A stretch of 32,631 nt of DNA from positions 1 through 32,631 of the IMG/VR virus record IMGVR_UViG_3300035698_009718; one strand, 5' to 3'. The notes below the pieces were generated by a model. That model ran no database searches, had not been told where the DNA came from, and saw nothing but the letters and a program-made list of their open reading frames with translations. How positions within the stretch are numbered: position 1 is the stretch's first letter; every line of letters starts with the position of its first letter. The DNA comes from a virus. Below are positions 3,006 to 22,848 of the stretch, one piece after another. A program made the position numbers and the translations under genes.

Positions 3006-3173
3006 ATGAATGAATCGACGAAAGACCCGTATCCGCTCCCAGTCCCAGTCGAAGGGGACTACGCGACGAACACCGTGACGTACAGATGCGAGGGCGGGAT
3101 ACGCAGAGTTTTTTCTACGCAAACTAACGAGGTGAAACGAGATGAGCGAACCGAACTGGATACGAATGAATGA
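3006..3173 (+). CDS. Small hypothetical protein (55 residues)
   Basis: ATG 3006 follows AGGAG (2992-2996) at about 9 nt spacing, a strong start signal. The 55-residue product (MNESTKDPYPLPVPVEGDYA...) is hydrophilic with a proline-rich beginning. The YRCEGGIRRVFS segment resembles a short beta-hairpin. The gene overlaps the next one by 32 nt in another frame. No family is recognised. The good SD and close packing make it more likely real than random. Confidence 0.5.
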   Translation: MNESTKDPYPLPVPVEGDYATNTVTYRCEGGIRRVFSTQTNEVKRDERTELDTNE

Positions 3174-3726
3174 GGACCTAATCGAGGATGTCTCAGTTTA
3201 TAAACGAGTTTACGTCGAAAAAGAGGTAAAGTTAGAATTTCCGGGCTCCCCAATCTTGCGTCCAACGGGAAAGTTTGTCGTGATGGGCGAACTCAAGTCC
3301 CGTCGTTCTGAGCTAGTGACTGATGCGATGATTGCAGGGGGCTTGTCCCACGAGGACGCGGTCACCATGATAGATAGTGTCGAGGAAGCAGGAGGGAGGC
3401 TATATTGGGAAGAGGTGCCCCTAAGACTTAATGACGACGGAATTACGGCAACATCAACAACTGGGGGATCTTTTACTGAAGGGATCGATCCAACGCATGA
3501 GATTAACAATGGTGACAGCTCGGCATTGCCGGACGAGGGAGCAGTGCCCAAGGTCGTTGTTGACGTGCTGCGTCTTATAGCGGAGCAGCTTCTCATTCTA
3601 TCTCGTGGCTACTGCGGCACCGACGGGCCTCACCCCGATACGGCGAGAAGGCGACTCCTTGCTTGCTGGAACCAGACGGATAAAGCACTACAGGACATTC
3701 AGGCTGCAAATACTACAGAGAGGTGA
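3142..3726 (+). CDS. Hypothetical protein, paralog A of the MSEPNWIR pair
   Basis: This 194-residue protein has the N-terminus MSEPNWIRMNEDLIEDVS and shares an arrangement with the next gene: the MSEPNWIR start, a Y(K/R)R(V/L)Y segment, LRPTGKF, a (D/E)DAV..(I/L)D.VE(E/D)A stretch and a later SALPD. The C-terminal part (about 135-194) is extra and predicted helical (VVVDVLRLIAEQLLIL). No catalytic motif, signal or membrane span is evident. The SD GAGGTG precedes ATG 3142. Homology with the neighbour extends into the ribosome-binding region at DNA level, which indicates tandem duplication. Confidence 0.6.
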   Translation: MSEPNWIRMNEDLIEDVSVYKRVYVEKEVKLEFPGSPILRPTGKFVVMGELKSRRSELVTDAMIAGGLSHEDAVTMIDSVEEAGGRLYWEEVPLRLNDDGITATSTTGGSFTEGIDPTHEINNGDSSALPDEGAVPKVVVDVLRLIAEQLLILSRGYCGTDGPHPDTARRRLLACWNQTDKALQDIQAANTTER

Positions 3727-3732
3727 ATCGAG

Positions 3733-4149
3733 ATGAGTGAACCGAACTGGATTCGGATTAAGGAGTATCAGATTGAGAATTTTTCGGCGTATAGGAGGTT
3801 GTACTTGAATGAGGAAATGAGGAGCGAAGCGTGTTCATCAACGACGACAGCTCACAAGCTCCGCCCCACAGGCAAATTTAGTCTGCTGGGTGTTCCTGTA
3901 GCCTTCCGAGGTGTGGTCACGATTGTCGAGGGCTTGTTGTATGACGACGCGGTTGCCCTGCTTGATAGGGTCGAGGACGCAGAAGGGGTGCCATTCTGGA
4001 ATGAAGCCGATGCCGCCAAGCGTAGAGACTCGGCATTGCCTGACGTGAAGAACCTGAACCCTGTCTCGGATAAGTGCACTGTCGGGGGACCCAGCGGGGC
4101 ACAGCCTGATGCTCCGAATTTAGACACGGGCTTCATCTCTCAGCCCTAA
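3733..4149 (+). CDS. Hypothetical protein, paralog B of the MSEPNWIR pair
   Basis: This 138-residue protein is paralogous to the upstream gene through about residue 95 (MSEPNWIR, YRRLYL, LRPTGKFSLLG, DDAVALLDRVEDAEG). It then diverges into a short proline- and glycine-containing tail lacking the helical C-terminus of copy A. The start lies 6 nt after the preceding stop with SD GAGGTGAATCGAG. Function is unknown. It directly precedes the large terminase gene. Confidence 0.6.
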   Translation: MSEPNWIRIKEYQIENFSAYRRLYLNEEMRSEACSSTTTAHKLRPTGKFSLLGVPVAFRGVVTIVEGLLYDDAVALLDRVEDAEGVPFWNEADAAKRRDSALPDVKNLNPVSDKCTVGGPSGAQPDAPNLDTGFISQP

Positions 4150-8570: not shown

Positions 8571-9626
8571 ATGCCAATAGAAAAAGACTACGAGAGCGAC
8601 GAAAAGCAGATAAAACATCAAGCAATCCCGATAGAGCGACGAGCGCTATCAATTTCTGACATTCGCACAAGCACAGAGGAAGATGATGAAAATGTCGGGG
8701 TGATTACGGGTTACGCCGCGGTGTTCGAGACGGAAGCCCTTGATAAGCTGGGGCGCGCAGAGAAAATTCGGCAAGGAGCTTTCAAAAAGACATTAAAGGA
8801 GCAACCGGATATCAAGGTGTTATTCAATCACGATACCAGTAAAATCCTTGCTCGCACAAGCAATGGCACCCTTGATATCGCCGAAGACAAGAGAGGATTA
8901 AAATTTACTGCGAGACTTAATTTATTGGTTTCATGGGCGAAGGACGCCTACGAGGCGATCAAATCTGGACTCATTGACCAAGTATCATTCGGATTCCAAG
9001 TGATCAAGGATGACGCCAAAATAATTTATCCAAATAAAGGCGAAGGCGGGGAAGGTCGCCGACTACGGGAACTGACTGAGATCAGACTATTTGAAATAAG
9101 CCCAGTTACCTTCCCGTTTTATCCCACAACCTCGGTAAAAGTCGATGTTGCTCTTCGTCATTTCCTTCAGCGAGCGCATGTTCCAGAAGATAAAATCGTG
9201 CGAGCTATCGGATGCTTGAGAGATAAAAACGAGGAGCCGCCACCGAAAGAAACAGATCAGGCAGTGTCGGAAGATGAAAGCGATACTGCCACCGAAAAGT
9301 CGGAGGCTGAAGCAGAAATAGAAGCGGAAGCAGAAAAAGAAGTGGGAGATGAGTCGAATACTGACGAGGAAGATGCCGAGCCGGACGTCGATACAACTGA
9401 CGACCACTCGGATTCAAATATTGCCGAGCCGAGTTCTGATTCTCACTCTGTAGAGATTGAACACGAACAATCAGATACGTCCGAGCCGGGTGGAGACATA
9501 GCCCACTCTGAAGGAGATGTAAAGAAGACCGCCTCGCGGGAGCTGTTGTCAGACGCACTATGGCGTGCGCGGCAGGCGCGCGGGCGAGAAAAACGATTTT
9601 TCAAAAAGGAGAGTGACGAACAATGA
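8571..9626 (+). CDS. HK97-type prohead protease (peptidase S78) with long acidic C-terminal extension
   Basis: A 351-residue maturation protease that trims the capsid protein's scaffolding domain. The serine protease core occupies about 20-205: GYAAVF, the catalytic histidine in LFNHD (H87), the serine in QVSFGF (S139), and the LFEISPVTFPF strand. Beyond about residue 225 lies a low-complexity acidic and serine-rich stretch (repeated EAEAE, DTTDD, SEP) ending in a basic segment (RQARGREKRFFKK). This makes the protein longer than a bare S78 protease and suggests a fused scaffold-like tail. SD AGGAGG precedes ATG 8571. The stop overlaps the capsid gene start (ATGA). Confidence 0.9.
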   Translation: MPIEKDYESDEKQIKHQAIPIERRALSISDIRTSTEEDDENVGVITGYAAVFETEALDKLGRAEKIRQGAFKKTLKEQPDIKVLFNHDTSKILARTSNGTLDIAEDKRGLKFTARLNLLVSWAKDAYEAIKSGLIDQVSFGFQVIKDDAKIIYPNKGEGGEGRRLRELTEIRLFEISPVTFPFYPTTSVKVDVALRHFLQRAHVPEDKIVRAIGCLRDKNEEPPPKETDQAVSEDESDTATEKSEAEAEIEAEAEKEVGDESNTDEEDAEPDVDTTDDHSDSNIAEPSSDSHSVEIEHEQSDTSEPGGDIAHSEGDVKKTASRELLSDALWRARQARGREKRFFKKESDEQ

Positions 9627-10951
9627 GCACAAGAAAAGCACAGCGCGCAGAGCTCGGAAGTGTACTAAGCGAAGTTGAGCAAATCACTAATGAGGCTCTA
9701 GAAGAAACACGGGAGTTGTCAAAACAGGAATATGGGCGCATAAACGACCTGTTGGAAAGAGAAGCGCAGCTCGAGTTGTTACTTAAGCAAGGCGAGCGCA
9801 TTGACAAGGCAAGGGACTTCGCCGGCGGGGCAAGGTCAACGCCAATCACTGACGGGACTGGCATCACGGCGGGAAGTTCGCCATCGTATCGGTCTGAGAA
9901 CCCCACAGAGTTTCGGGGGATGGGTGGATTTTTGCAGGCGGTTCATACCGCCCAACTCAATCCGTCTGGTATGGACAGCCGGCTCCGGGATCAACAGAAA
10001 CGGGCTACTGGTTTGTCTGAAGGGGTACCCGCCGACGGTGGCTTCCTCGTGCAGACAGACCTCTCAAGCAAGTTGCTTCAACTGACCTTCGAGACGGGTA
10101 TTCTTGCCTCGAAGTGTGATCGGCTGAAAATCAGCAATACTGCGAATGCAATGAAAATCCCTGGCGTGGATGAAACAAGCCGAGCGGATGGAAGTCGAAT
10201 GGGTGGAGTTCGGGCATATTGGAAAAATGAGGCTCAGGCCAAAGTGGCGTCACAGCCCAGTTTTCGGCAAATCGAGCTGAACCTGAACAAGCTGATCGGG
10301 CTTTGCTATACCACGGACGAATTGCTGCAAGATACTGTTGCGTTGGAGTCGTGGCTTATGTCCGCGTTCCCGAACGAATTCGGGTTCAAAATCGACGACG
10401 GAATTATCAACGGCAATGGCGGCGGGCAGCCACTTGGGATAATGAATAGCGGGGCGTTGGTTACGGTTGCAAAAGAAGCTGGTCAAGCGGCAACCACCAT
10501 TATCTATGATAACGTGTTAAAGATGTGGACTCGCATGATCGCGTCGTCTCGCAAGAACGCGGTGTGGTATATAAATCAGGACTGCGAGATGCAATTGCAC
10601 ACGATGACCATGCCGATAGGCACGGCGGGGACGGCGGTATATCTACCTCCAGGAGGCGCGTCTGATGTGCCTTACTCTAGGCTATTTGGCCGACCAGTCT
10701 TGCCGATTGAACAGTGCCAGACGCTGGGAACGACCGGGGATATTATTCTTGCCGACTTGTCGCAATATTATTTGGCGGACAAAGCTGGCATTCAGAGCGA
10801 TTCCTCGATCCACGTTAAGTTCGTAGAGGACGAGACGGCTTTCCGCTTCGTCTACAGGGCTGACGGACAACCGAAATTGGCATCCGCTATAACGCCATAC
10901 AAGGGCAATGATGATATTTCGCCGTTTGTGGCGCTCGCGGAGCGGGCATAA
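9623..10951 (+). CDS. Major capsid protein, HK97 fold
   Basis: This 442-residue shell protein has an N-terminal helical, charged segment (about 1-70, with EVEQITNEALEETRELSKQE) resembling the delta/scaffold domain, expected to be removed by the upstream protease. The remainder matches Phage_capsid: GVPADGGFLVQTDLS, the YWKNEAQAK E-loop region, KLIGLCYTTDELLQD, the GNGGGQPLGIM motif and the C-terminal FRFVYRADGQPKLASAITPYKG. It overlaps the protease gene by 4 nt, implying coupled expression. A hairpin follows at 10979. Confidence 0.95.
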   Translation: MSTRKAQRAELGSVLSEVEQITNEALEETRELSKQEYGRINDLLEREAQLELLLKQGERIDKARDFAGGARSTPITDGTGITAGSSPSYRSENPTEFRGMGGFLQAVHTAQLNPSGMDSRLRDQQKRATGLSEGVPADGGFLVQTDLSSKLLQLTFETGILASKCDRLKISNTANAMKIPGVDETSRADGSRMGGVRAYWKNEAQAKVASQPSFRQIELNLNKLIGLCYTTDELLQDTVALESWLMSAFPNEFGFKIDDGIINGNGGGQPLGIMNSGALVTVAKEAGQAATTIIYDNVLKMWTRMIASSRKNAVWYINQDCEMQLHTMTMPIGTAGTAVYLPPGGASDVPYSRLFGRPVLPIEQCQTLGTTGDIILADLSQYYLADKAGIQSDSSIHVKFVEDETAFRFVYRADGQPKLASAITPYKGNDDISPFVALAERA

Positions 10952-11551: not shown

Positions 11552-11621
11552 GACTTTCTATAAGGCGGAACCACTGCCTTTGTCGGCTTGCCGGCACAAA
11601 CTACAAGTATGGAGGTTTATT

Positions 11622-12368
11622 ATGGCTGTAACGAATGTAGGTAGCAGATGGAGACATGGTTTTCTTGAGTTTTTTGACACGGTAACAAATCGCGTTATTG
11701 ATGTGGAAGCTCCCGTGAAGAAATTTGACGACTTCTTGGGTCCGGCAATTGATAACACAAATGATTGGAACGTTTCTGTTGTCGGGGCTGGAGCGGCAAC
11801 GGCGGATGCCGGTTGGATGACTATTACAACCGCCGCCGGAGATGACGACGACGTAGAAGTTGCATCCGAGCTGACATTCAACGGGACGAATTATATCGTA
11901 CTCGAAGCGCGATTGCGCAATGATGACGTTGCCAATAGTGCTGTTTGTGTCGGGTTGGTTGATGCAATCGCTTATGCCGCTGACACGTTGGCGGTAACAT
12001 ACGACAGCGATGCGTTGGTCACGACCGCTACTGACGGGGCGTGCTTCTTCCACGACAAAGACACTACGGGCGACACTTGGAGAGCGGTGTGCGTTGATTC
12101 CGATACCAACGGCGCCATTCTTGACACGACGGTCACGCCGGTTAATTCCCAAATTCAGAACTTTCGAATTAGGATTAACGCTAGCGGCTTTTGCGACTTC
12201 TGGTTTTCAACGGGCACGGCGGCGTTGGAGCATCTTGGCGAAGACATTCTTATTGGTGTTACGCCGGGCGTGTCTCTGTGCGCTTATGTCGGGTATATGA
12301 CGAGAGAAACCGCTGCAAACACGTGTGATGTAGACTTCATGCGTGTATGGGGTGGCAAGATCGATTGA
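11622..12368 (+). CDS. Lectin-like (concanavalin A-type) head surface protein, copy 1
   Basis: This 248-residue, beta-rich protein begins MAVTNVGSRWRHGFLEFFDT, continues KKFDDFLG and ends CDVDFMRVWGG. The layout of FDDFLG, an internal ARLRNDD stretch, CFFHD, a RIRINASGFCDFWF strand and a closing DVDFMRVWG recalls concanavalin-like jelly-roll proteins often encoded beside phage capsid genes. A role as a head surface or sugar-binding decoration protein is inference. ATG 11622 is preferred over an upstream in-frame start because GGAGG lies just ahead of it. The second copy follows directly, about 85% identical by manual alignment. A terminator-like hairpin follows. Confidence 0.65.
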   Translation: MAVTNVGSRWRHGFLEFFDTVTNRVIDVEAPVKKFDDFLGPAIDNTNDWNVSVVGAGAATADAGWMTITTAAGDDDDVEVASELTFNGTNYIVLEARLRNDDVANSAVCVGLVDAIAYAADTLAVTYDSDALVTTATDGACFFHDKDTTGDTWRAVCVDSDTNGAILDTTVTPVNSQIQNFRIRINASGFCDFWFSTGTAALEHLGEDILIGVTPGVSLCAYVGYMTRETAANTCDVDFMRVWGGKID

Positions 12369-12377
12369 TCGGTTTAT

Positions 12378-12406
12378 GGGGGCGGCTCGTTTCGCCCTCA
12401 CTTTTT
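12378..12406 (+). terminator. Intrinsic terminator-like hairpin after lectin-like copy 1
   Basis: GGGGGCG (12378-12384) pairs with CGCCCTC (12393-12399), including one G-T pair, with an 8-nt loop. It is followed by AC and five Ts (12402-12406). The stem plus short T-run is compatible with partial Rho-independent termination between the two duplicated genes. Confidence 0.65.
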
Positions 12407-12469
12407 ATAAGGCGGAACCACTGCCTTTGTCAGCTTGGCTGGCACAAACTACAAGTATGGAGGTTTATT

Positions 12470-13216
12470 ATGGCTGTAACGAATGTAGGTAGCAGATGGA
12501 GACATGGTTTTCTTGAGTTTTTTGACACGGTAACAAACCGTGTTATTGATGCGAAAGCTCCCGTGACGAAGTTCGACGATTTCTTGGGGCTGGCGATTGA
12601 TAGCACAAATGATTGGAACGTAGCCGCAGTCAATGGTGGGACGGCAACGGCGGATGCCGGTTGGATGATTTTGACAAGTGGTGCCGCAAATGACGACAAT
12701 GTAGAAGTCGCGTCCGAGCTGACGTTCAACGGGACTAATTCTATAGTATTTGAAGCGCGATTGCGCAATGATGACGTTGCCAATAGCGCTGTTTGTGTCG
12801 GATTAGTTGATGCAATCACCTATGGCGCTGACCAGTTGGCGATAAGTTATGCTGGTGATACGTTGGTCACAAACGCGAGTGACGGAGCTTGTTTCTTCCA
12901 TGATACAGACACTACGACCGACACTTGGAGAGCGGTGTGCGTTGATTCCGATACCAACGGCGCCATTCTTGACACGACGGTCACGCCGGTTAATTCCCAA
13001 ATTCAGAACTTTCGAATTAGGATTAACGCTAGTGGCTTTTGCGACTTCTGGTTTTCAACGGGCACGGCGGCGTTGGAGCATCTTGGCGAAGACATTCTTA
13101 TTGGCGTAACGCCGGGTACATCGCTGTGTGCTTATGTCGGGTATATCACGAGAGAAGGCTTTGTAAACACGTGTGATGTAGATTTCATGCGTGTATGGGG
13201 TGGCAGGATCGACTGA
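12470..13216 (+). CDS. Lectin-like (concanavalin A-type) head surface protein, copy 2
   Basis: This 248-residue paralog of the preceding gene has the same start (MAVTNVGSRW) and end (CDVDFMRVWGG) and an identical SD. Residues about 147-212 are identical in both copies. Differences cluster at about 28-33, 52-75 and 116-138, as expected for surface loops or strands under different selection. Like copy 1, it is probably a virion surface beta-sandwich that may bind glycans. A strong terminator follows at 13240. Confidence 0.65.
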   Translation: MAVTNVGSRWRHGFLEFFDTVTNRVIDAKAPVTKFDDFLGLAIDSTNDWNVAAVNGGTATADAGWMILTSGAANDDNVEVASELTFNGTNSIVFEARLRNDDVANSAVCVGLVDAITYGADQLAISYAGDTLVTNASDGACFFHDTDTTTDTWRAVCVDSDTNGAILDTTVTPVNSQIQNFRIRINASGFCDFWFSTGTAALEHLGEDILIGVTPGTSLCAYVGYITREGFVNTCDVDFMRVWGGRID

Positions 13217-13239: not shown

Positions 13240-13279
13240 GTTGGCGGGGTGGGAACTTTTCGCCTCGCCAACATTTTTT
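13240..13279 (+). terminator. Intrinsic terminator after lectin-like copy 2
   Basis: GTTGGCG (13240-13246) pairs with CGCCAAC (13266-13272). Three more inner pairs including one G-T are possible. After one A come six Ts (13274-13279). This is a good Rho-independent terminator, yet head and neck genes continue downstream in the same direction without an obvious promoter. Read-through or antitermination is therefore implied. Confidence 0.8.
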
Positions 13280-14944: not shown

Positions 14945-15799
14945 ATGGCATTAAACCTATATGCTACGCTTACTGACATAAAAGACTCCAATCGACTAGA
15001 CATCAGCGCGACAACCAATGACGATTTGCTTGAGGCATTACTGGAAAATGCCAGCCGTGTAATTGATGGCGATACGCATAGATTCTTTTATACAAAAACA
15101 GAAACAAAACACATGAACACGAGTCGTGGAAATGATTATCTGCTATTGCCAGAAGACTTGATAAGCATCGACGCCGACGGACTCACGGTAGACACGGAGA
15201 GTGACGGCACGTATGACGGGCAGACTTGGACTGAGGCTACAGACTTTTGGACATATCCCTATGAAGAGTATCCGAAATACAAGCTGCTAACAACAGGGTT
15301 CGGCAGTTATTCGTTTGCGAGTGAACAACGACGCGATGTGCAAATTGTCGGCATTTGGGGATATGGGGACGGGACAAGCGATCCGTGGAGCGCGACAATT
15401 ATAACGGGCACGGTGGGAGATGGCACAACGACAACGCTTGACCTAAGTCTGAGTGGCACTGTTAAGCGAGGGCACACAATCAAGTGTGGTACGGAACAGA
15501 TGTACGTCTCGGCGATCGATGAGACAAGCGGAGTAGACACGGCGACCGTTACTCGTGGTGTAAATGGAACGACGGCGGCAGCCCAGGCAGCGGCGGTGGT
15601 ATCAATTGCTCAGTATCCGTCACAGATCAAGCAAGCCTGCCTACATTTTGCCACGCGATTCTGGACAGAGCTTGCCGATACAGGTCAGATGCAAAGCGAG
15701 CGAATAGGCAGCTATTCATATTCGAAGTTTCAGCCCTCTAATTTGCGAGAGCAAGATTTGAGACTTGTGGCAATATTCAGAAGGATACCAGTCGTATGA
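14945..15799 (+). CDS. Head-tail connector protein (gp6-like adaptor), enlarged
   Basis: This 284-residue neck protein has the gp6-like start: YATLTDIKDSNRLD, then a NDDLLEALLENASRVIDGDTHR helix pair (written here in parts), followed by FFYTKTETKHM. The C-terminal helix (YPSQIKQACLHFATRFW) closes the fold. Between them lies an extra beta-rich stretch (about 155-215, TGTVGDGTTTTLDLSLSGT...) that makes it longer than usual adaptors. It would form a ring below the portal. It overlaps the next gene by 4 nt (ATGA). Confidence 0.8.
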   Translation: MALNLYATLTDIKDSNRLDISATTNDDLLEALLENASRVIDGDTHRFFYTKTETKHMNTSRGNDYLLLPEDLISIDADGLTVDTESDGTYDGQTWTEATDFWTYPYEEYPKYKLLTTGFGSYSFASEQRRDVQIVGIWGYGDGTSDPWSATIITGTVGDGTTTTLDLSLSGTVKRGHTIKCGTEQMYVSAIDETSGVDTATVTRGVNGTTAAAQAAAVVSIAQYPSQIKQACLHFATRFWTELADTGQMQSERIGSYSYSKFQPSNLREQDLRLVAIFRRIPVV

Positions 15800-16107
15800 G
15801 CATTCAGTCGTTCTTCAAAGATTCGTTGGTGTTTAGGCAACATCGCGGGAGAGATGCGCATAATGAGCCATTGACCCCTGAATTCACGGATACTGCAATA
15901 AAGGGACGGGCTATTGAGCAACAACGAAATGTGACGACTGTAGAAGGTGAAGAAGATGTTTCGACGATGACTATTTGGATATCTAATCGCACCGTCACGA
16001 ATGAGGATAAGATCACATACGAAGGCGTGGATTATTCGGTGCTAACAATGTTTCGTCCAAAGGATCGTTCAGGGAAAGTCCACCATTTAGAATTGAATTG
16101 TCAATAA
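15796..16107 (+). CDS. Head closure / head-tail joining protein (Hc1-like)
   Basis: This 103-residue protein fits SPP1 gp16-like head closure proteins: an N-terminal FFKDSLVFRQHRGRDAHNEP, a central TAIKGRAIEQQRNVTTVEG barrel strand, then VTNEDKITYEGVDYSVLTM and a terminal VHHLELNCQ. The small beta-barrel plugs the connector after packaging. It starts inside the connector stop. In related phages the next gene is a gp10-like neck protein. Here that gene is displaced to 21887 by the 5.8-kb sugar-modification cassette. Confidence 0.8.
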   Translation: MSIQSFFKDSLVFRQHRGRDAHNEPLTPEFTDTAIKGRAIEQQRNVTTVEGEEDVSTMTIWISNRTVTNEDKITYEGVDYSVLTMFRPKDRSGKVHHLELNCQ

Positions 16108-16142: not shown

Positions 16143-17570
16143 ATGGGGAAAGCTATTGTAGGCAGAAAAATTAGAAGGGGGCGCCCAGCACTACAATGCC
16201 CAAGCAGGAACTTTCCACCAAACGTAATGAAACATTCGGCTGCGCAAAGCAGACAGGGGCTTCGTGTCAAAAAGGGCAAAGGTGGCGGCGCGAATGGTCG
16301 AATAATTAGGAATAATCGTAAATTGTACGAGGTGTTACCCAATAATGCGTGGAAGGGAAGGCGCTGTTTCGTGGTTGGCGGGGGGCCTAGTTTGAGAGGT
16401 TTCGACTGGAGCCTCTTAAAAGGTGAGCTCGTAATAGTCATTAACAGAGCTTTTGAGATGTTGCCAACGGCGGCAATAAACTTCAGTATGGATTTGCGAT
16501 ACTGGAAATGGTTAGAGATCGGCATGGTTGGGCAGACCGACGAAGAGCGAACAGTCGTTAGGAAGGAATGGTTAGACTTTGGTGGGTTAAAAGTTTGGTT
16601 AAACACTAACCATTTTCCTCTTCCAGAAGAAATCTTTACGCTTCAGGCAAGCGGAGGATGGGAATTTTCAGAGGACATGGCTAAGGGGCTTGGAACCGGG
16701 TGCAATAGCGGTTTCAGTGGGACAAATCTCGCGGCGTGCTTAGGCGCAAGTCCAATATATCTTCTTGGGTTCGACATGAAAGGTAGCAGCGATGGGCAGC
16801 AAGCATGGTTTCATACAGGCTACCCACCTATCGCAATGCAGAAAGATACCGTATACAATAGATTCCGTGACTTTTTTGAGAAGATAGCCCCTAAGTTTCA
16901 GGATAGAATAATCAATCTAACCCCGGGAAGCGCCCTGAAATGTTTCAAGACTGAGAGGTTTGAGAATTTGCCAAAAATCAGAAGACCCGTTGTGGTGACA
17001 TATTACACAAAAGACACCCCATACGAAACGTTGGTCAGCAAATGGAAGGAGTCAATTCACAAATTCGGCATGGAATATGATATTGTGGGGGTTCCAAGCA
17101 AAGGGTCTTGGCAGGAAAATACTCGGTATAAGGCGACCTTTATTGAGGAAATGCTCAACAAACACAAACGACCAATTCTGTTTATCGATGTAGATGGAGA
17201 AATGTGCAAATACCCGAACTTGCTTGATGATTTGGACGCTGATGTTGCCGTGCATTTTAGAGATTATGCACAGTTCCCTTCTCATTCCAGAAAAGAGGGC
17301 AAGGAGCTATTGTCTGGGACGATATTTTTTAACGATACAGAAATCGCCAGAGAACTTATTAGTGCGTGGAAACTGCAAAACAAAAACAACACTACGGCGT
17401 GGGAGCAGAGAAACCTTCAGGTGGCACTTGAACGAGCAATGAAAGGCAAAGAGATCGATGTGCTGGAGCTTCCGGCAACCTATTGCCAGATTTTTGACCT
17501 GATGGCGGCAGCTGGCGAACCAGTGATCGAGCATTTTCAGGCAAGCAGAAGATTCAGGAATTTAAGATGA
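16143..17570 (+). CDS. Two-domain sugar-modification protein (MptE/DUF115-like plus glycosyltransferase-like)
   Basis: This 475-residue protein has a basic N-terminal extension (1-60), then a domain with RRCFVVGGGPSLRGFDWSLL (nucleotide-binding GGGPS at 79-83), ending near SPIYLLGFDMKG. This is the pattern of MptE/DUF115-like proteins found in surface-glycan and flagellin-glycosylation loci. A second domain (about 278-475) with FIDVDGEM (D349-x-D351) looks like a nucleotide-diphospho-sugar transferase. It probably transfers a sugar in the cytoplasm; donor and acceptor are unknown. SD GGAG is very close to ATG 16143, and the in-frame ATG at 16227 is an alternative. It is the first gene of the inserted cassette and overlaps the sulfotransferase by 4 nt. 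Confidence 0.65.
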   Translation: MGKAIVGRKIRRGRPALQCPSRNFPPNVMKHSAAQSRQGLRVKKGKGGGANGRIIRNNRKLYEVLPNNAWKGRRCFVVGGGPSLRGFDWSLLKGELVIVINRAFEMLPTAAINFSMDLRYWKWLEIGMVGQTDEERTVVRKEWLDFGGLKVWLNTNHFPLPEEIFTLQASGGWEFSEDMAKGLGTGCNSGFSGTNLAACLGASPIYLLGFDMKGSSDGQQAWFHTGYPPIAMQKDTVYNRFRDFFEKIAPKFQDRIINLTPGSALKCFKTERFENLPKIRRPVVVTYYTKDTPYETLVSKWKESIHKFGMEYDIVGVPSKGSWQENTRYKATFIEEMLNKHKRPILFIDVDGEMCKYPNLLDDLDADVAVHFRDYAQFPSHSRKEGKELLSGTIFFNDTEIARELISAWKLQNKNNTTAWEQRNLQVALERAMKGKEIDVLELPATYCQIFDLMAAAGEPVIEHFQASRRFRNLR

Positions 17571-18157
17571 CGACCAAAAAACTCTTTATCATAGGATTGC
17601 GAAGAAGCGGCACATCAATTTTGCGCAAGCTTTTGTTGCAACACCCGGAAGTGATGGGCATCGAGTTTGAGCCGCATCCATTATGGTTTGCCGTAGACAT
17701 GAATCATTTCAATCGATTTCGAGGTGATCCGTATGTGCAGCAAACATTAGACGTGTTTCTGAATCGGTGCCCTGAACGAAAGTGGTATGGGGCAAAGTTT
17801 GCTCTTAATCCCGGGGTAAAGGCATTAGAGTGGGTATGGTTGGCAAAGATATTTGCGGACGCCAAGTTTATTTTCATCGTTCGCGATCTAACACAGACAT
17901 GGGCAAGCTATTACAGGCAGGACAAAAGTTCTGTTCGGGGCGTTATAGATGAAGAGGCATACAAGGTGCTGGGGCGGGGTCTAATCGGGGGGTTTCAAGA
18001 GTTTTGTAAGCGAGCTCCTTCTCGTGGTGTCGTTGTTAATTATTCACGGCTTGTTGAAAATGCGGATTCAGAGTTGACTAATATCTGGTCATTGTTGGGG
18101 ATCGAGACTCACTTGGGCTTTAATGCTCAGATGAAAATTCCGAAACACTGGGGGTAA
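17567..18157 (+). CDS. Sulfotransferase family protein
   Basis: This 196-residue P-loop protein transfers sulfate from PAPS to a hydroxyl or amine. The N-terminal 5'-phosphosulfate loop is GLRRSGTSIL (10-19) directly after a hydrophobic strand (LFIIGL). The 3'-phosphate site follows the FIFIVRD strand with R106 and S114 (RDLTQTWAS). The protein is short compared with typical sulfotransferases, but both PAPS motifs are present. The acceptor is unknown; the neighbouring glycosyltransferases suggest a sugar. It starts inside the previous stop (ATGA). Confidence 0.8.
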   Translation: MTTKKLFIIGLRRSGTSILRKLLLQHPEVMGIEFEPHPLWFAVDMNHFNRFRGDPYVQQTLDVFLNRCPERKWYGAKFALNPGVKALEWVWLAKIFADAKFIFIVRDLTQTWASYYRQDKSSVRGVIDEEAYKVLGRGLIGGFQEFCKRAPSRGVVVNYSRLVENADSELTNIWSLLGIETHLGFNAQMKIPKHWG

Positions 18158-18166
18158 GGCAGACAG

Positions 18167-18835
18167 ATGAAGCACATCACCATAGTCATACCAACGAGAA
18201 ATAGATGGAACAAGCTATGCGCGACGCTCGATAGCATAGTTTTGGCGGAAGAGTCTATACGTGTTCTTATCGTTTGCGACGCGGATAAAGCGACCTATGA
18301 CAGGGCGTCAAGAATATTTCGGGATGTGCCAAATATCGAGATATTTTTAGCTGCTGGCGAGAAGCCTCGCGGAGCGACATATTGCCGAAACTTAGTGACA
18401 GGTAAAGCGGAAGACGGAGTGTTGTATGCTACGGATGACATTGTATTTAAGGAAGATACTATAGCCGTTGCGATGGCAACATTCAACGAGAATTTTGATG
18501 ATGACGATGGCGTGGTGGGGTTCAAGCAGGTGCCGTGCAACTATCATTTAACGGGGGTGGCGTTGGTTGGGAAGACGTTTCTTGAGCGATACCCCGGCAA
18601 ACGGTTGTTCTTTCCTGGTTACTTCCATTTTGCGTGTCAAGAAGTTCATTGGTTAGCCGAGAAGTTGGATAAATTCATCCATGAACCGAACGCGATTGTA
18701 ACTCATAAAACACCGAAATTTTTCCCTGAAGAGCATGACCAAACATGGAACGATGCTAGGACACATCAGGTACAGGACAAGGCGCTGAGACTGCAACGGA
18801 TCAAAGAAAGTAAAATATGGGGGGATCAAGAATGA
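18167..18835 (+). CDS. Glycosyltransferase, family 2-like
   Basis: This 222-residue GT-A fold enzyme opens with ITIVIPTRNRWNKL, the standard nucleotide-sugar binding start, followed by RVLIVCDADKATYD. The metal-binding motif is TDD at 89-91 (YATDDIVF), in place of a canonical DxD. The acceptor part includes FFPGYFHFACQEVHW. It would transfer a sugar from a nucleotide donor in the cytoplasm. It ends overlapping the small membrane protein gene (ATGA). Donor and product cannot be inferred from sequence. Confidence 0.78.
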   Translation: MKHITIVIPTRNRWNKLCATLDSIVLAEESIRVLIVCDADKATYDRASRIFRDVPNIEIFLAAGEKPRGATYCRNLVTGKAEDGVLYATDDIVFKEDTIAVAMATFNENFDDDDGVVGFKQVPCNYHLTGVALVGKTFLERYPGKRLFFPGYFHFACQEVHWLAEKLDKFIHEPNAIVTHKTPKFFPEEHDQTWNDARTHQVQDKALRLQRIKESKIWGDQE

Positions 18836-19008
18836 TACTGGTACCCGTGATCATATTCTTCGTTGTTGTTGCCTTATGGCTTAGCTCGCTTGAGCGTAGA
18901 TTCAAAGGAAACGAGCACTCAATTATGCTCGCCAACGAGAAGATTAATGAAACAATACAAATCTATGAGATTCGCAAGCTCGTTGACGAAAAGAAGAGAG
19001 CGCAATGA
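18832..19008 (+). CDS. Small single-span membrane protein in the sugar cassette
   Basis: This 58-residue protein has an N-terminal membrane span (MILVPVIIFFVVVALWLSSL) followed by a charged, helical tail (NEKINETIQIYEIRKLVDEK). ATG 18832 overlaps the previous stop, and GGGGGG lies upstream; an in-frame ATG at 18817 would add five residues. It is sandwiched by ATGA overlaps between two glycosyltransferases, so it is co-translated with them. A membrane-anchoring or scaffolding role for the enzymes is possible but unproven. Confidence 0.6.
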   Translation: MILVPVIIFFVVVALWLSSLERRFKGNEHSIMLANEKINETIQIYEIRKLVDEKKRAQ

Positions 19009-19661
19009 CAATCTCCCTATTCATGCCTGTCTACAAACGGTTCGCGTATGTTCCTGATATATTACAGGCATGGCAATCACAAGTTGACGAAATAGTGGTA
19101 TGGGATGATTCATGTGATTTGTCCAGAGAGTATCCTCAAGGCGTGACTGTGATACGATCAACGCGACCGATGGGAAGCCACATAAAATTCAAGGTGGCGC
19201 AGCTCTTAGAGAACGATGTGGCATTGATTGTAGATGATGATATTGTGCCGCATTGCGGGCTTGTGGATGCGCTTATGGCACATTATAGGCCAGACCGCGT
19301 GCTTACCGTATTCGGGCGGAAGTTAAACGCCGCCGGCTATAAAAATAAGAGCTGCCCCCTGCAACGTTCTGACAAGATTGCGGAACTTACAAAGGTTGAT
19401 TGGGGAGGGCGGCTACTCATCGGCGCGCGAGAACGTTTTATGCTCGACGTTTCTGGGTGTCTTGACACGGTGCTTGACGATTTGTATTGGAGCTTTCAAC
19501 TGAAAGTTAAATGCCCCGATGCACAGATATTCGTTGTGCCGACAGATAAATGGCACAATTCAGATGACGCAAATGATAAGCACTCATTATCAAAAACTCC
19601 AAATTATTGGGTGAAGCGAGATGAGTATGTTCGAGCAAATTATAGTAAAATATTTGCATAG
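19005..19661 (+). CDS. Glycosyltransferase (GT-A fold, family 2-like)
   Basis: This 218-residue enzyme opens with ISLFMPVYKRFAYVP, then VDEIVVWDDS and the metal-binding DDD at 77-79 (ALIVDDDIVPHCG). A second acidic region (DTVLDDLYWSFQLKV) and the late TDKWHNSDD segment complete the active site, resembling family 2 and exostosin-type (GT64) folds. It likely adds a sugar in the same pathway as the enzyme at 18167, from which it differs clearly in sequence. The ATGA overlap with the small membrane protein gene indicates coupled translation. Confidence 0.75.
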   Translation: MTISLFMPVYKRFAYVPDILQAWQSQVDEIVVWDDSCDLSREYPQGVTVIRSTRPMGSHIKFKVAQLLENDVALIVDDDIVPHCGLVDALMAHYRPDRVLTVFGRKLNAAGYKNKSCPLQRSDKIAELTKVDWGGRLLIGARERFMLDVSGCLDTVLDDLYWSFQLKVKCPDAQIFVVPTDKWHNSDDANDKHSLSKTPNYWVKRDEYVRANYSKIFA

Positions 19662-19672
19662 GAGCGAGCGTT

Positions 19673-21481
19673 ATGGAGGCTGAGGAATATTATAAAGAGC
19701 ATTGGGAGCCGCATGAAATTTGGACGCATCTTGACAGGCCAAAACACATGGCGCGGTTTGAGCACTGCGTTTCATTTTTGAATGGAAAACAATTCGCGGA
19801 TGTTGGATGCGCGAGTGGGCACTCTACGCAGATAATGAAGGGGATAAAAGACGGAGAATGGCGCGGTTTTGATTTTACAAAATCCGGCATTGACCAAGCG
19901 AAAATCAATTTCCCTGATATGCCGTTTGAATATTTGTCAAATAGCAAGGGCATGGAAGCGGTGAAGACGGAGTTTGATGGGGTTGTGTGTTCTGAGGTGC
20001 TTGAGCATGTTCCAGAGGACAAACAATTCATAAATTCTCTGTGGACGATGGTAAAGCCGGGCGGCACAATGGTGATTACCACCCCAAACAGATATGTGAA
20101 CGACCCGGGGCACTTAAGGGTATACACCATAGATATGATAGAAGAATTATACGAGGGGATCCCGCTCGCGATTCATAAAGAGGGTATTTTTTGGTACATT
20201 GTTTCGCAGAAAGTGGTGAAGCAAGAAGCAGAGAAGCAGAAAGTTGTGAAGCAGGAAGCGGGCGCAATGGATAGCAATGTGGCAAAAGAAGTGTTGCTTG
20301 AGGTTAAAGATATTCTCGACGGCGCGGAAGTTCCCTTTTTCCTAATTTGCGGCACATGTTTGGGAGCGCATAGGGATAAGGCGTTTATAAAAGGGGACGA
20401 CGACATTGATTTGGGCGTGTTGATAGAGGATCTGCACCCGGCGGCAACCACATTAGCCGATACATTTACGCAAGCGGGATTCTCTGCAAGAATTATTTGT
20501 CGCCCTTTTGAATTTGCACGTGTACTCAAATTGAAGAAGCGTGGCATTGGCATAGACGTGGCGGGATGGTGTAAGACGGGTAATGTGCGCTGGGTGTCGT
20601 CAACCATTAGAGACTATTGTTTGGTTCACCCGACAAAGCTATTTGAAGGGATGAAGCGTATCAGATTTTGTGGCAAATATTTTCATGTTCCTACGCCAGT
20701 TTCAGAATATCTAACCGCCGAATATGGAGATTGGGAAACCCCAAAGCCCAATATGCACATTAGCACGTCACGAGTGTATGATTTCAGGAAGGCACACAAC
20801 ATCGGTGGTTATGGAATTATGCACTGGCGCAAAACGAAGCGCAAACTTTATAACACGAAGGGGGCGAATATGTTAGAGCGAGATGTCCCATCTGAAAAAC
20901 TGGATGAGATTTATGGCGAGCAAGATTACTACGGCTATTTGAATAGCGAACCGTTTATGGAATGCTTCAAAGCGATTGCGACGCAAATCAAACAACTCCC
21001 GGATGTAGCGTCTATCTTGGACGTGGGATGTGGTCGGGGAATGTTGCCGAAATTTCTTCGACCGGAGCATAGATACTTGGGATTCGATGGGTCTGCAACA
21101 GCGATCGAGTCGGCGAAGAAGAGCTGGGCAGGGAGAGAGAACACGGACTTTGAGGTTGGTAGGATTGAAAACTTCCTATGTGAAAAACAGATTATCGACC
21201 CCGAAGCTTCTTTTGACCTAATCTTGTTCGGTGGCGTTCTTCATTGCCTGATTAAACAAGAGAATTGGGTCGAGTTTATCAAGATGTATTTGAATGCGTT
21301 TAACGCAGATCATTTTGTAATATACGATTTGTCGATAGCCGATACAAGCATTCTAAAAGAACACTTTGTGCTCTTGCACGAGCAGGCTCTTGATATTAAA
21401 ATCCCGAAGGTTCAGGAAGTCAAAAAGCATCGTATGTTAGAGGTCTACAAGATCAAGGGCTGTACGGTAGGAGAAGAGTGA
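19673..21481 (+). CDS. Three-domain fusion: methyltransferase - LicD-like - methyltransferase
   Basis: This 602-residue protein has an N-terminal class I SAM methyltransferase (about 35-178; motif I FADVGCASGH, CSEVLEHVPED, KPGGTMVITTP). A short 10-residue repeat linker (179-198) follows. Next comes a LicD-type phospho-ligand (nucleotidyl)transferase domain (199-395; PFFLICGTCLGAHRD, GDDDIDLGV with D242-D246), then a second SAM methyltransferase (400-602; ILDVGCGRGM). LicD enzymes attach phosphocholine or similar phospho-ligands to sugars; methyltransferases could cap them. Internal ATGs at 20267 (M199) and 20870 (M400, after AAGGGGG) coincide with domain boundaries. SD AGGAG precedes ATG 19673. 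The order is unusual. Confidence 0.8.
   Translation: MEAEEYYKEHWEPHEIWTHLDRPKHMARFEHCVSFLNGKQFADVGCASGHSTQIMKGIKDGEWRGFDFTKSGIDQAKINFPDMPFEYLSNSKGMEAVKTEFDGVVCSEVLEHVPEDKQFINSLWTMVKPGGTMVITTPNRYVNDPGHLRVYTIDMIEELYEGIPLAIHKEGIFWYIVSQKVVKQEAEKQKVVKQEAGAMDSNVAKEVLLEVKDILDGAEVPFFLICGTCLGAHRDKAFIKGDDDIDLGVLIEDLHPAATTLADTFTQAGFSARIICRPFEFARVLKLKKRGIGIDVAGWCKTGNVRWVSSTIRDYCLVHPTKLFEGMKRIRFCGKYFHVPTPVSEYLTAEYGDWETPKPNMHISTSRVYDFRKAHNIGGYGIMHWRKTKRKLYNTKGANMLERDVPSEKLDEIYGEQDYYGYLNSEPFMECFKAIATQIKQLPDVASILDVGCGRGMLPKFLRPEHRYLGFDGSATAIESAKKSWAGRENTDFEVGRIENFLCEKQIIDPEASFDLILFGGVLHCLIKQENWVEFIKMYLNAFNADHFVIYDLSIADTSILKEHFVLLHEQALDIKIPKVQEVKKHRMLEVYKIKGCTVGEE
20206..20259 (+). repeat. Direct repeat encoding the inter-domain linker
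   Basis: Two 24-nt copies start 30 nt apart (20206-20229 and 20236-20259) with three differences. They encode two tandem 10-residue units QKVVKQEAEK and QKVVKQEAGA. The repeat lies exactly at the join between the first methyltransferase and the LicD-like domain, as expected for a linker grown by slippage or recombination at a gene fusion point. Confidence 0.8.
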
Positions 21482-21921
21482 TGGAAAGCAGAGGCAAAAC
21501 TATCGTTTATATACCCGGATGCTGGGAGATGCTGCACATCGGGCATTTGAATATGCTAACCCGCGCAAAGGCGCTTGGCGACATCCTGATAGTTGGAGTC
21601 GAAGGCGATGCGTTGATAGAGGGCGAAAAAGGACATGCTCCGATAATCCCGTGCGACCAGAGGGCGCGAATGCTCGAAGCGCTGGAATGTGTAGACATCG
21701 CTATTCCATTTGATTCTTTTGATTACGCGGAGATTGTTAAACAGGTGGGCGCGGAGATATTTGTGATTGGCTCACAACACGAAGGGGATCGCTTCGATAA
21801 AGTACGATGCACAGATTGCAAAGTGGTTCAACTGCCGTACACAGACGGCATTTCGGACACAACGATTAAGGAGCGTATTTGCCACAATGCCAACAATGGT
21901 GCTGGACACAACAGAGCATGA
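21481..21921 (+). CDS. Cytidylyltransferase-like protein (TagD / glycerol-3-phosphate cytidylyltransferase type)
   Basis: This 146-residue nucleotidyltransferase activates a small phosphorylated compound with CTP. The HIGH motif is seen in MLHIGHLNML, the R-x-x-M-L region in QRARMLEALECVD, and the closing ISDTTIKERI matches the family's ISTTxIK signature. Substrate specificity (glycerol-3-phosphate, a heptose or another phospho-ligand) cannot be read. Beside a LicD-like domain, a CDP-linked ligand is attractive. ATG 21481 overlaps the previous stop (TGATG) with AGGAGAAG upstream; a GTG three bases earlier is possible. It is the last gene of the cassette. Confidence 0.82.
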   Translation: MESRGKTIVYIPGCWEMLHIGHLNMLTRAKALGDILIVGVEGDALIEGEKGHAPIIPCDQRARMLEALECVDIAIPFDSFDYAEIVKQVGAEIFVIGSQHEGDRFDKVRCTDCKVVQLPYTDGISDTTIKERICHNANNGAGHNRA

Positions 21922-22435
21922 TAAGAGTATGCGGTATTTGCTGAAACACGCCATGCCGGATAGTGTGAAAGAGGGCTTGGCGTCGGCTGGCAGAGAGCTA
22001 ATGAAAGACGCTCTTGAAAAGACCCCTACAGTCCCGATGTTTCACACGGGATTTACAAAGACGGGGAGAAAACGAAAAAAACGGCGGCACGGCAGATTGG
22101 TGAGAGGCGGATGGCTTCGTGGTAGCGGGTCTGTATTCGTTGACAACAAGTTCATTGCGAAATCTCCAAGAGTCAATAATTTGGGAACCCCAGCAATTTC
22201 TCATAGAGGCCGGATACCAAAAGATTCACATGTTGTCGTTGTCGGATTTAATACGAGATATGCCACGCGAGCGCATGAGCTACCGAGTTCTTCCGATTTT
22301 TCAACACCGGGTTCGGGTCCTAAGTTTTTGGAGTCCAAAGTTTCTGCATATAGAAAAAAATATGTGGGGATGGTCGCGCATTCGCTTCAGAGCGGTATGG
22401 CGACATCAATTCTTATAGGTAGGCATAGGGAATAA
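21887..22435 (+). CDS. HK97 gp10-like neck / tail completion protein
   Basis: This 182-residue protein fits gp10-like proteins: a helical start (YLLKHAMPDSVKEGLASAGREL), a basic middle, then the family's second half VVVVGFNTRYATRAHELPSS and GPKFLESKVSAYRKKYVG. It acts at the head-tail interface. The frame is open back to 21767, inside the cytidylyltransferase gene. The ATG at 21887 (or 21896) is chosen because AAGGAG lies upstream, at 13 nt or more. It overlaps the cassette's last gene by 35 nt, so the insertion did not disrupt it. Confidence 0.75.
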   Translation: MPTMVLDTTEHDKSMRYLLKHAMPDSVKEGLASAGRELMKDALEKTPTVPMFHTGFTKTGRKRKKRRHGRLVRGGWLRGSGSVFVDNKFIAKSPRVNNLGTPAISHRGRIPKDSHVVVVGFNTRYATRAHELPSSSDFSTPGSGPKFLESKVSAYRKKYVGMVAHSLQSGMATSILIGRHRE

Positions 22436-22437
22436 TA

Positions 22438-22848
22438 ATGGCGAACTTTTTACAAGAACTTTGTGCATGGATTGCCGCAAATACGCCAACAGGAAGTACG
22501 ACGCTGGTCGTGGGCGCAAATCTCCAAGAAGGGTGGCGTGAACTCGAAGCTCCAGACGAATGTGTCTTGGTTGCAGAATCGGCTGGAGGCAAGCCGCAGT
22601 TTATTAGCACGGACTGGGTTGACAAATCGATACAGATATTAACCCGGAGCATAACGTATGTCGAGGCGAGAGACTTGGCGTTCGAGGTTCATTCCTTGTT
22701 GCACGGACAATGTCACACGTCGCTCACATCGTTTCATGTAAACGTGATGGACGCACAAAGTGTCCCCGCGTATATGGGGACGGATGAAGAGAGGAGATTT
22801 GAATTTTCACAAAACTATATTATGCCGTATCAAAGCGCGCCGACTTGA
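22438..22848 (+). CDS. Putative tail terminator / minor capsid protein
   Basis: This 136-residue protein lies at the tail-terminator position. The pattern FLQELCAWIAANTPTG, then KSIQILTRSITYVEARDLAF and EVHSLLHGQC matches tail-end proteins that cap the tail tube (Minor_capsid/tail terminator type). SD AGGGAATAATA precedes ATG 22438. It follows the gp10-like gene and precedes the tail tube gene, the usual siphophage order. Confidence 0.75.
   Translation: MANFLQELCAWIAANTPTGSTTLVVGANLQEGWRELEAPDECVLVAESAGGKPQFISTDWVDKSIQILTRSITYVEARDLAFEVHSLLHGQCHTSLTSFHVNVMDAQSVPAYMGTDEERRFEFSQNYIMPYQSAPT

Follow-up and report, generated by a model that had tools for sequence, protein, structure and literature searches.

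A seven-gene cassette in the neck operon of a tailed phage that may glycosylate the virion

The cassette and its surroundings

The window, by which we mean the whole stretch of DNA analysed (32,631 nucleotides), is a 32.6-kb linear virus record of a tailed phage, IMG/VR record IMGVR_UViG_3300035698_009718, and represents a fragment. At positions 16143-21921, between genes resembling head closure (HCP) and Neck1/gp10, lie seven co-directional, tightly packed genes that we call the cassette and number c1 to c7 (Table 1). Adjacent genes overlap by about 4 nt at the c1/c2, c3/c4, c4/c5 and c6/c7 junctions, and the last 26 nt of c7 are shared with the gp10-like reading frame, which begins at 21896. 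The start of c4 was moved from 18817 to 18832, which is probably correct because GGGGGA precedes it and it forms an ATGA overlap with the upstream stop. At 0.46-0.52, the GC3 of the cassette falls among the values of the structural genes and gives no hint that foreign DNA was inserted very recently. A pattern search of the region found promoter- and terminator-like patterns within the cassette at chance frequency only, and co-transcription with the neck genes is therefore the best reading of the block.

Table 1. Cassette genes and structural genes of the window, with the evidence for each assignment
Feature	Position	Strand	Evidence or remark
TerS	starts 224		order TerS, TerL, portal, protease, MCP
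TerL	starts 4180		terminase confirmed by family search
Portal	starts 7270		confirmed by family search
Protease	starts 8571		confirmed by family search
Major capsid protein (MCP), HK97-type	9623-10951		confirmed by family search
Two tandem decoration-like paralogues	11580-12368 and 12347-13216	+	candidate glycan acceptors
Head-tail connector (HTC), upstream flank	14945-15799	+	phrog_442 head-tail adaptor, 3.5e-11
Head-closure-like gene (HCP), immediate upstream flank	15796-16107	+	phrog_3881, 3.9e-5
c1: Maf/MptE-like domain plus GT-A (Nucleotid_trans/A064R-like) domain	16143-17570	+	founder gene of cassette
c2: sulfotransferase (Sulfotransfer_3)	17567-18157	+	1.1e-15
c3: GT2-like glycosyltransferase	18167-18835	+	PF00535 1.1e-4, below cut-off
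c4: small protein, one predicted TM segment	18832-19008	+	hydropathy 2.79 over 19 residues
c5: GT2-like glycosyltransferase	19005-19661	+	PF00535 0.0053, below cut-off
c6: methyltransferase-LicD-methyltransferase (MT-LicD-MT) fusion	19673-21481	+	Pfam; homology to L154 MT1 and LicD-MT2
c7: CTP-transferase-like enzyme (TagD/PCYT2/HldE-type)	21478-21921	+	PF01467 1.6e-15; GTG start
gp10/Neck1-like gene, downstream flank	21896-22435	+	homologous to L150 gene
Tail-terminator-like gene, downstream flank	22438-22848	+	phrog_2595, 1.4e-13
Tube-like gene	starts 22902
Tape measure gene (TMP)	starts 24176		confirmed by family search; tail-tip genes beyond

The initial annotation had placed the block between head closure and a gp10-like neck gene, and the flanks bear this out. 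The upstream gene matches phrog_3881 and is 29% identical to the HCP of a relative, L150. The downstream gene, for which family searches inside the window gave no direct match, is homologous (36%, 2.8e-23) to an L150 gene that matches phrog_5, "tail completion or Neck1".

The two decoration-like paralogues are 85.6% identical across 257 aa. Family searches of the window proteins gave no match for them; homologues lie near head genes in L060, L072, L082, L157 and L169, and in the tail-tip region in G060. Between the second paralogue and the neck genes, at 13240-13272, is a strong terminator-like hairpin with a 15-bp stem and a T run, which may lower expression of the neck genes and the cassette relative to the capsid genes. 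Elsewhere in the window, tandem duplicated ORFs at 3142-3726 and 3733-4149 both open with MSEPNWIR, the second copy being shorter and diverged.

Families and predicted folds of the cassette proteins

All seven reading frames lie where the initial annotation placed them, and the domains that it had named were recovered with Pfam; matches of c2, c6 and c7 are above the curated thresholds and those of c1, c3 and c5 are below. For c1 the match to the MptE-like family (PF01973) has an E value of 7e-5 and 23.1 bits, short of the 34.6-bit cut-off, and 7 of 11 c1 homologues match PF01973 at E values up to 0.01; c1 is not assigned to the family. The Nucleotid_trans match (E 7e-4) is just below the Pfam cut-off. 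An AlphaFold2 model of c1 built from 11 sequences has a mean pLDDT of 81 and a pTM of 0.80. The best matches of its C-domain are entries for the PBCV-1 capsid glycosyltransferase (Z 18.2-18.3, about 2.9 A over 182-184 residues; 2p73), some 3 Z units above the GT6 enzymes (next family Z 15.4), although sequence identity to the first domain of A064R (A064R-D1) is about 11%. The C-domain has the GT-A fold and a DxD motif, of which D349 and D351 are invariant in the 11 aligned sequences. Among the matches listed, mostly to the C-domain, the N-domain model resembles the Maf structure 5mu5 (Z 14.5, 194 residues, 3.5 A, 18% identity). Both halves of the c1 model point to glycosylation of structural proteins, a like fold being no proof of function. 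The sialyltransferase CstII was considered as a relative of c1 and set aside, as its sequence-profile match reached an E value of 0.2 only.

At the family level c2 is a sulfotransferase: it scores 58.9 bits against a cut-off of 27 for PF13469, and an RSGTS motif of the PAPS-binding type is present at the N-terminus, LRRSGTSILRKLL. In c6, methyltransferase domains (7e-24, two stretches) lie on either side of a LicD domain (1e-8). The LicD match (PF04991) scores 35.6 against 22.6 bits and spans 35 of 227 profile positions, and the stretch FIKGDDDIDLG holds the DDDID motif. The c6 model is of lower quality (pLDDT 68, pTM 0.38), and a fold search with it suggests two methyltransferase folds in tandem and nothing further. 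Phosphoethanolamine N-methyltransferase was the top fold match for c6 but was rejected, with an rmsd of 18-20 A and an unrelated tandem methyltransferase beside it. Matches of c7 in the PDB include 3elb, 2b7l and 1coz. It falls below the equivalog cut-offs for both glycerol-3-P cytidylyltransferase (TIGR01518; 70.8 vs 165.4 bits) and heptose-1-P adenylyltransferase (TIGR02199; 89 vs 181.5 bits), and in the RTEGIST motif it has Tyr at the position where TagD has Arg.

Among the seven proteins c4 alone has a TM-like segment, and the glycosyltransferases look soluble by hydropathy. Family searches and TM prediction across the block found no GtrA-like flippase, initiating membrane transferase or polymerase, and the membrane flippase and membrane glucosyltransferase genes by which a serotype-conversion (gtr) cassette is recognised are absent from it.

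Recurrence at the head-tail boundary

A 24.6-kb span of the window had no megablast match in the phage collection, single-protein scans of IMG/VR with c6, c1 and HTC gave no match, and c2 and c6 had no tblastn match among 50,697 phage records. Because a genome scan with c6 yielded just one match, a 48-residue LicD stretch in a Chlamydiae MAG (L147), we infer no host. Relatives were found in IMG/VR with an alignment of the c1 N-domain and its homologues from Tetraselmis viridis virus S20 and CcrColossus as query; 239 stretches encode c1 relatives, and 80 of these were kept.

A c1 homologue opens a run of glycosyltransferase, methyltransferase and related genes in 12 records (L150, L154, L156, L158, L162, L165, L166, L169, L171, L181, L214 and L218), and the runs lead, on the same strand, into homologues of the HCP, gp10, tail-terminator, tube or TMP genes of the window. 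These records correspond to about 11 lineages: L156 and L181 look like one, and the near-duplicates L151, L153 and L219 were not counted. The initial annotation had proposed seeking the same block in related phages; sets that are related but differ in content recur there, and L154 keeps most of the window's order: c1, c3, c5, MT1, LicD-MT2 and CTP-transferase, with other genes interspersed. Identity between L154 and the window's cassette genes is 32-48% where tblastn aligns, and the HCP and the whole neck-tail set follow. Identities to other relatives are given by c2 (36-37% to cassette genes of L156/L181), c3 (47-48% in L153/L154, 40% in L162) and c5 (35-36% in L156/L181). The arrangement is more than chance, as independent contigs repeat its gene content and order. 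The initial annotation had also named what would speak against it, the whole block lying elsewhere under independent promoters, and this was not seen among the relatives examined. In one record, G078, c1/c3-like genes lie downstream of the tail-tip genes.

The cassette is upstream of HCP in most relatives and downstream of it in the window. It seems to travel with the neck/tail module, because the head modules of some relatives differ from the HK97-like genes of the window: L150 has a phrog_122 decoration protein and a minor head protein, and L154 a phrog_247 MCP. L192 and L201 have HK97-like head genes plus c1-type genes ahead of TMP. The minor head protein of L165 (16852-18741) carries an internal stretch resembling an intein-type insertion that begins after NCILPETPVF and ends SSNC.

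Among 48 c1-bearing records, LicD occurs in five, the CTP-transferase in four and both in three (hypergeometric p 0.002, the records not being wholly independent). The CTP-transferase gene is directly 3' of LicD in L158, and the two are adjacent in L154 as well. This co-occurrence and adjacency support a branch that makes a CDP-alcohol and transfers the phospho-alcohol. Sulfotransferases also belong to the L156/L181 neck cassettes and occur in other c1-bearing records. Cassette content varies strongly between relatives. Among 72 ORFs of eight cassettes, a Pfam census identified methyltransferases, GT2, NDP-sugar transferases, FkbM, epimerase/dehydratase, RmlD, rhamnosyltransferase, LicD, CTP-transferase and radical SAM families, and as judged from these predicted families the eight are a modular glycan kit. 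Radical-SAM-like genes lie in or beside the neck cassettes at L169 13279-14529 and L115 17450-17770. At L150 9887-12952 (also in L151), a 1021-aa fusion combines c1-like domains with a second Nucleotid_trans domain, a methyltransferase and a GT29-like stretch, and resembles the GT-GT-MT plan of A064R.

Relatives by head genes (TerL about 50% and MCP about 50-60% identical to the window) present a different picture of the site. It is empty in L067, which has the same head type and the order HTC, head-tail adaptor/Hc1-like gene, 85-aa ORF, Neck1 and tail terminator. In L070, L092, L109 and L124, GT2 and/or methyltransferase genes occupy another slot of that operon, between genes called tail-terminator-like and tube-like from position and length, with no family match. 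No LicD was found in 48 records related via head genes.

A proposed role in virion glycosylation

We estimate a probability of roughly 60% that the cassette is expressed late and glycosylates the virion, with activities, acceptor and sugar inferred from family, fold and synteny. The c1 product would be the founder enzyme: its Maf-like half would place the first sugar, in the cytoplasm, on a virion protein, and the GT-A half, which is A064R-like, would draw on a host nucleotide sugar for the residue that follows. The chain would be lengthened by c3 and c5. A CDP-alcohol, ethanolamine-, choline- or glycerol-like, would be made by c7, and the LicD domain of c6 would move the phospho-alcohol onto the glycan, while the two methyltransferase domains of c6 may methylate the sugar or the transferred group. 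Sulfate from PAPS, added by c2, would cap the glycan, and c4 possibly tethers an enzyme to the membrane. The glycan would probably be carried by abundant surface proteins whose genes lie just upstream, either the MCP or the duplicated decoration-like proteins, and placement in the head-to-tail operon would cause the enzymes to be made together with their acceptor. The initial annotation spoke of a complete small pathway. For the neck operon, comparative and structural evidence upholds a small glycan pathway but not its completeness, as the block (within a 32.6-kb fragment) holds no genes for sugar-nucleotide synthesis; such genes, like genes for host-surface change, may lie elsewhere in the genome.

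We regard as rather unlikely a bolder version, a self-contained chlorovirus-like pathway in which the Maf-GT primes a capsid or decoration protein, the GT2 enzymes extend the chain, the LicD, CTP-transferase and methyltransferase activities add a methylated phospho-amino-alcohol toward phosphocholine-like ends, and sulfate gives a charged coat, the whole being a modular kit that many uncultured siphophages exchange at the head-tail boundary.

Virion and host surface were considered equally likely targets in the initial annotation, and the evidence now leans to the virion. In the host-surface explanation, O-antigen, capsule or teichoic acid is altered in infected or lysogenic cells, which would block superinfection or keep progeny from sticking to debris. 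LicD enzymes of characterised bacteria act on envelope glycans, which by analogy would count against the virion; a phage LicD in Flandersviridae has been interpreted in this way (PMC8008677), and one GT2 of L092 weakly matches a GtrB-like O-antigen family. The virion is favoured because the glycosyltransferases look soluble, the block is without a flippase or initiating transferase, and its placement is late and structural; further, it recurs with head/neck genes across lineages, and the folds modelled for c1 match enzymes of protein or capsid glycosylation. Maf and A064R differ in both acceptor and donor, and likeness of the modelled folds does not prove activity. On balance a role at the host surface, the main rival to the virion reading, seems unlikely.

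The block could also be a loose hotspot of glycan genes (morons) in the neck operon, with roles of their own or in turnover and no single pathway. The strong variation in content fits this idea, as do the second slot at the tail terminator/tube and the empty site in L067. We consider it improbable given that c1 recurs as first gene, LicD and the CTP-transferase are linked, the order c1-c3-c5-MT-LicD-MT-CTP-transferase is kept in L154 at so low an identity, and the cassette genes are joined by short translational overlaps. It is very improbable that the glycosyltransferases and methyltransferases alter phage DNA bases against host nucleases: the c1 domains resemble protein/glycan glycosyltransferases, base-modifying precursor enzymes were not recognised beside the cassette in the 32.6-kb fragment, and we know of no DNA role for LicD or sulfotransferases. 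In its favour, virus-encoded glycosyltransferases do act on phage DNA (noted in PMC12619734).

If virion glycosylation is the correct reading, the cassette looks like an example of a common, little-described means by which phages coat themselves with sugar. To our knowledge, a few mycobacteriophages are the only phages in which virion glycosylation has been proved. Glycan coats bear on how phage particles avoid antibodies, grazers and wasted adsorption, and the founder gene c1, with its recurrent head-tail place, is a marker by which such systems could be found at scale in uncultured phages. Should the virion be the target of the LicD-CTP-transferase-methyltransferase branch, we know of no earlier case of a phage particle decorated with a phospho-alcohol.

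The expectation that such a set would be new holds in part. Corndog already has glycosyltransferases and a methyltransferase in its structural operon (PMC4351075). What is new is the sulfating LicD/CTP-transferase set with its Maf-GT founder gene, the recurrence at the head-tail boundary in uncultured phages, and the LicD-CTP-transferase-methyltransferase linkage in such cassettes. Literature searches on phages that combined LicD with sulfotransferase, or that used DUF115, gave nothing relevant.

In Corndog an O-methyltransferase and glycosyltransferases are encoded between portal and protease; infected cells produce the enzymes, and virions lack them (PMC4351075). Virion proteins of Che8, Corndog and Myrna, of capsid or tail, are glycosylated according to Freeman et al. 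(2023), cited through PMC12363180; Che8 and Corndog are the demonstrated analogues in function. The window cassette likewise has phage-encoded glycosyltransferases, and a methyltransferase, inside a structural operon. The acceptor is proved in those phages and proposed in the window; their glycosyltransferase family and slot are different, and no LicD, CTP-transferase or sulfotransferase is reported there. In Flandersviridae gut phages a LicD/IspD insertion, read as host teichoic-acid modification, also has LicD beside a nucleotidyltransferase gene (PMC8008677), but in the replication module and with IspD, whereas the window has a TagD-like enzyme in a neck operon.

In the isolate-derived S20 (NC_020840), a comparable insert of MptE-like, glycosyltransferase and methyltransferase genes lies between the MCP and head-closure genes, ahead of the tail terminator and major tail protein. 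Its record is without functional description, no LicD, CTP-transferase or sulfotransferase is annotated, and its homologue of the c1 N-domain, a separate short gene in the annotation, shares only 27% identity. Flagellin is O-glycosylated by Maf enzymes, whose central domain resembles CstII (PMC11339370). They directly modify a self-assembling structural protein, and the modelled N-domain of c1 resembles their fold; c1 differs in having a GT-A domain instead of the Maf flanking domains and a PF01973 score below cut-off, and the nonulosonic-acid donor is a feature of Maf. A064R is a GT-GT-methyltransferase that acts on the capsid glycan of PBCV-1 (PMC7826918, PMC9614988). PBCV-1 is a eukaryotic algal virus with N-glycans, for which LicD, CTP-transferase and sulfotransferase are not considered, but soluble multi-domain glycosyltransferase/methyltransferase enzymes build the capsid glycan there, and the c1 C-domain shares the A064R-D1 fold in the model.
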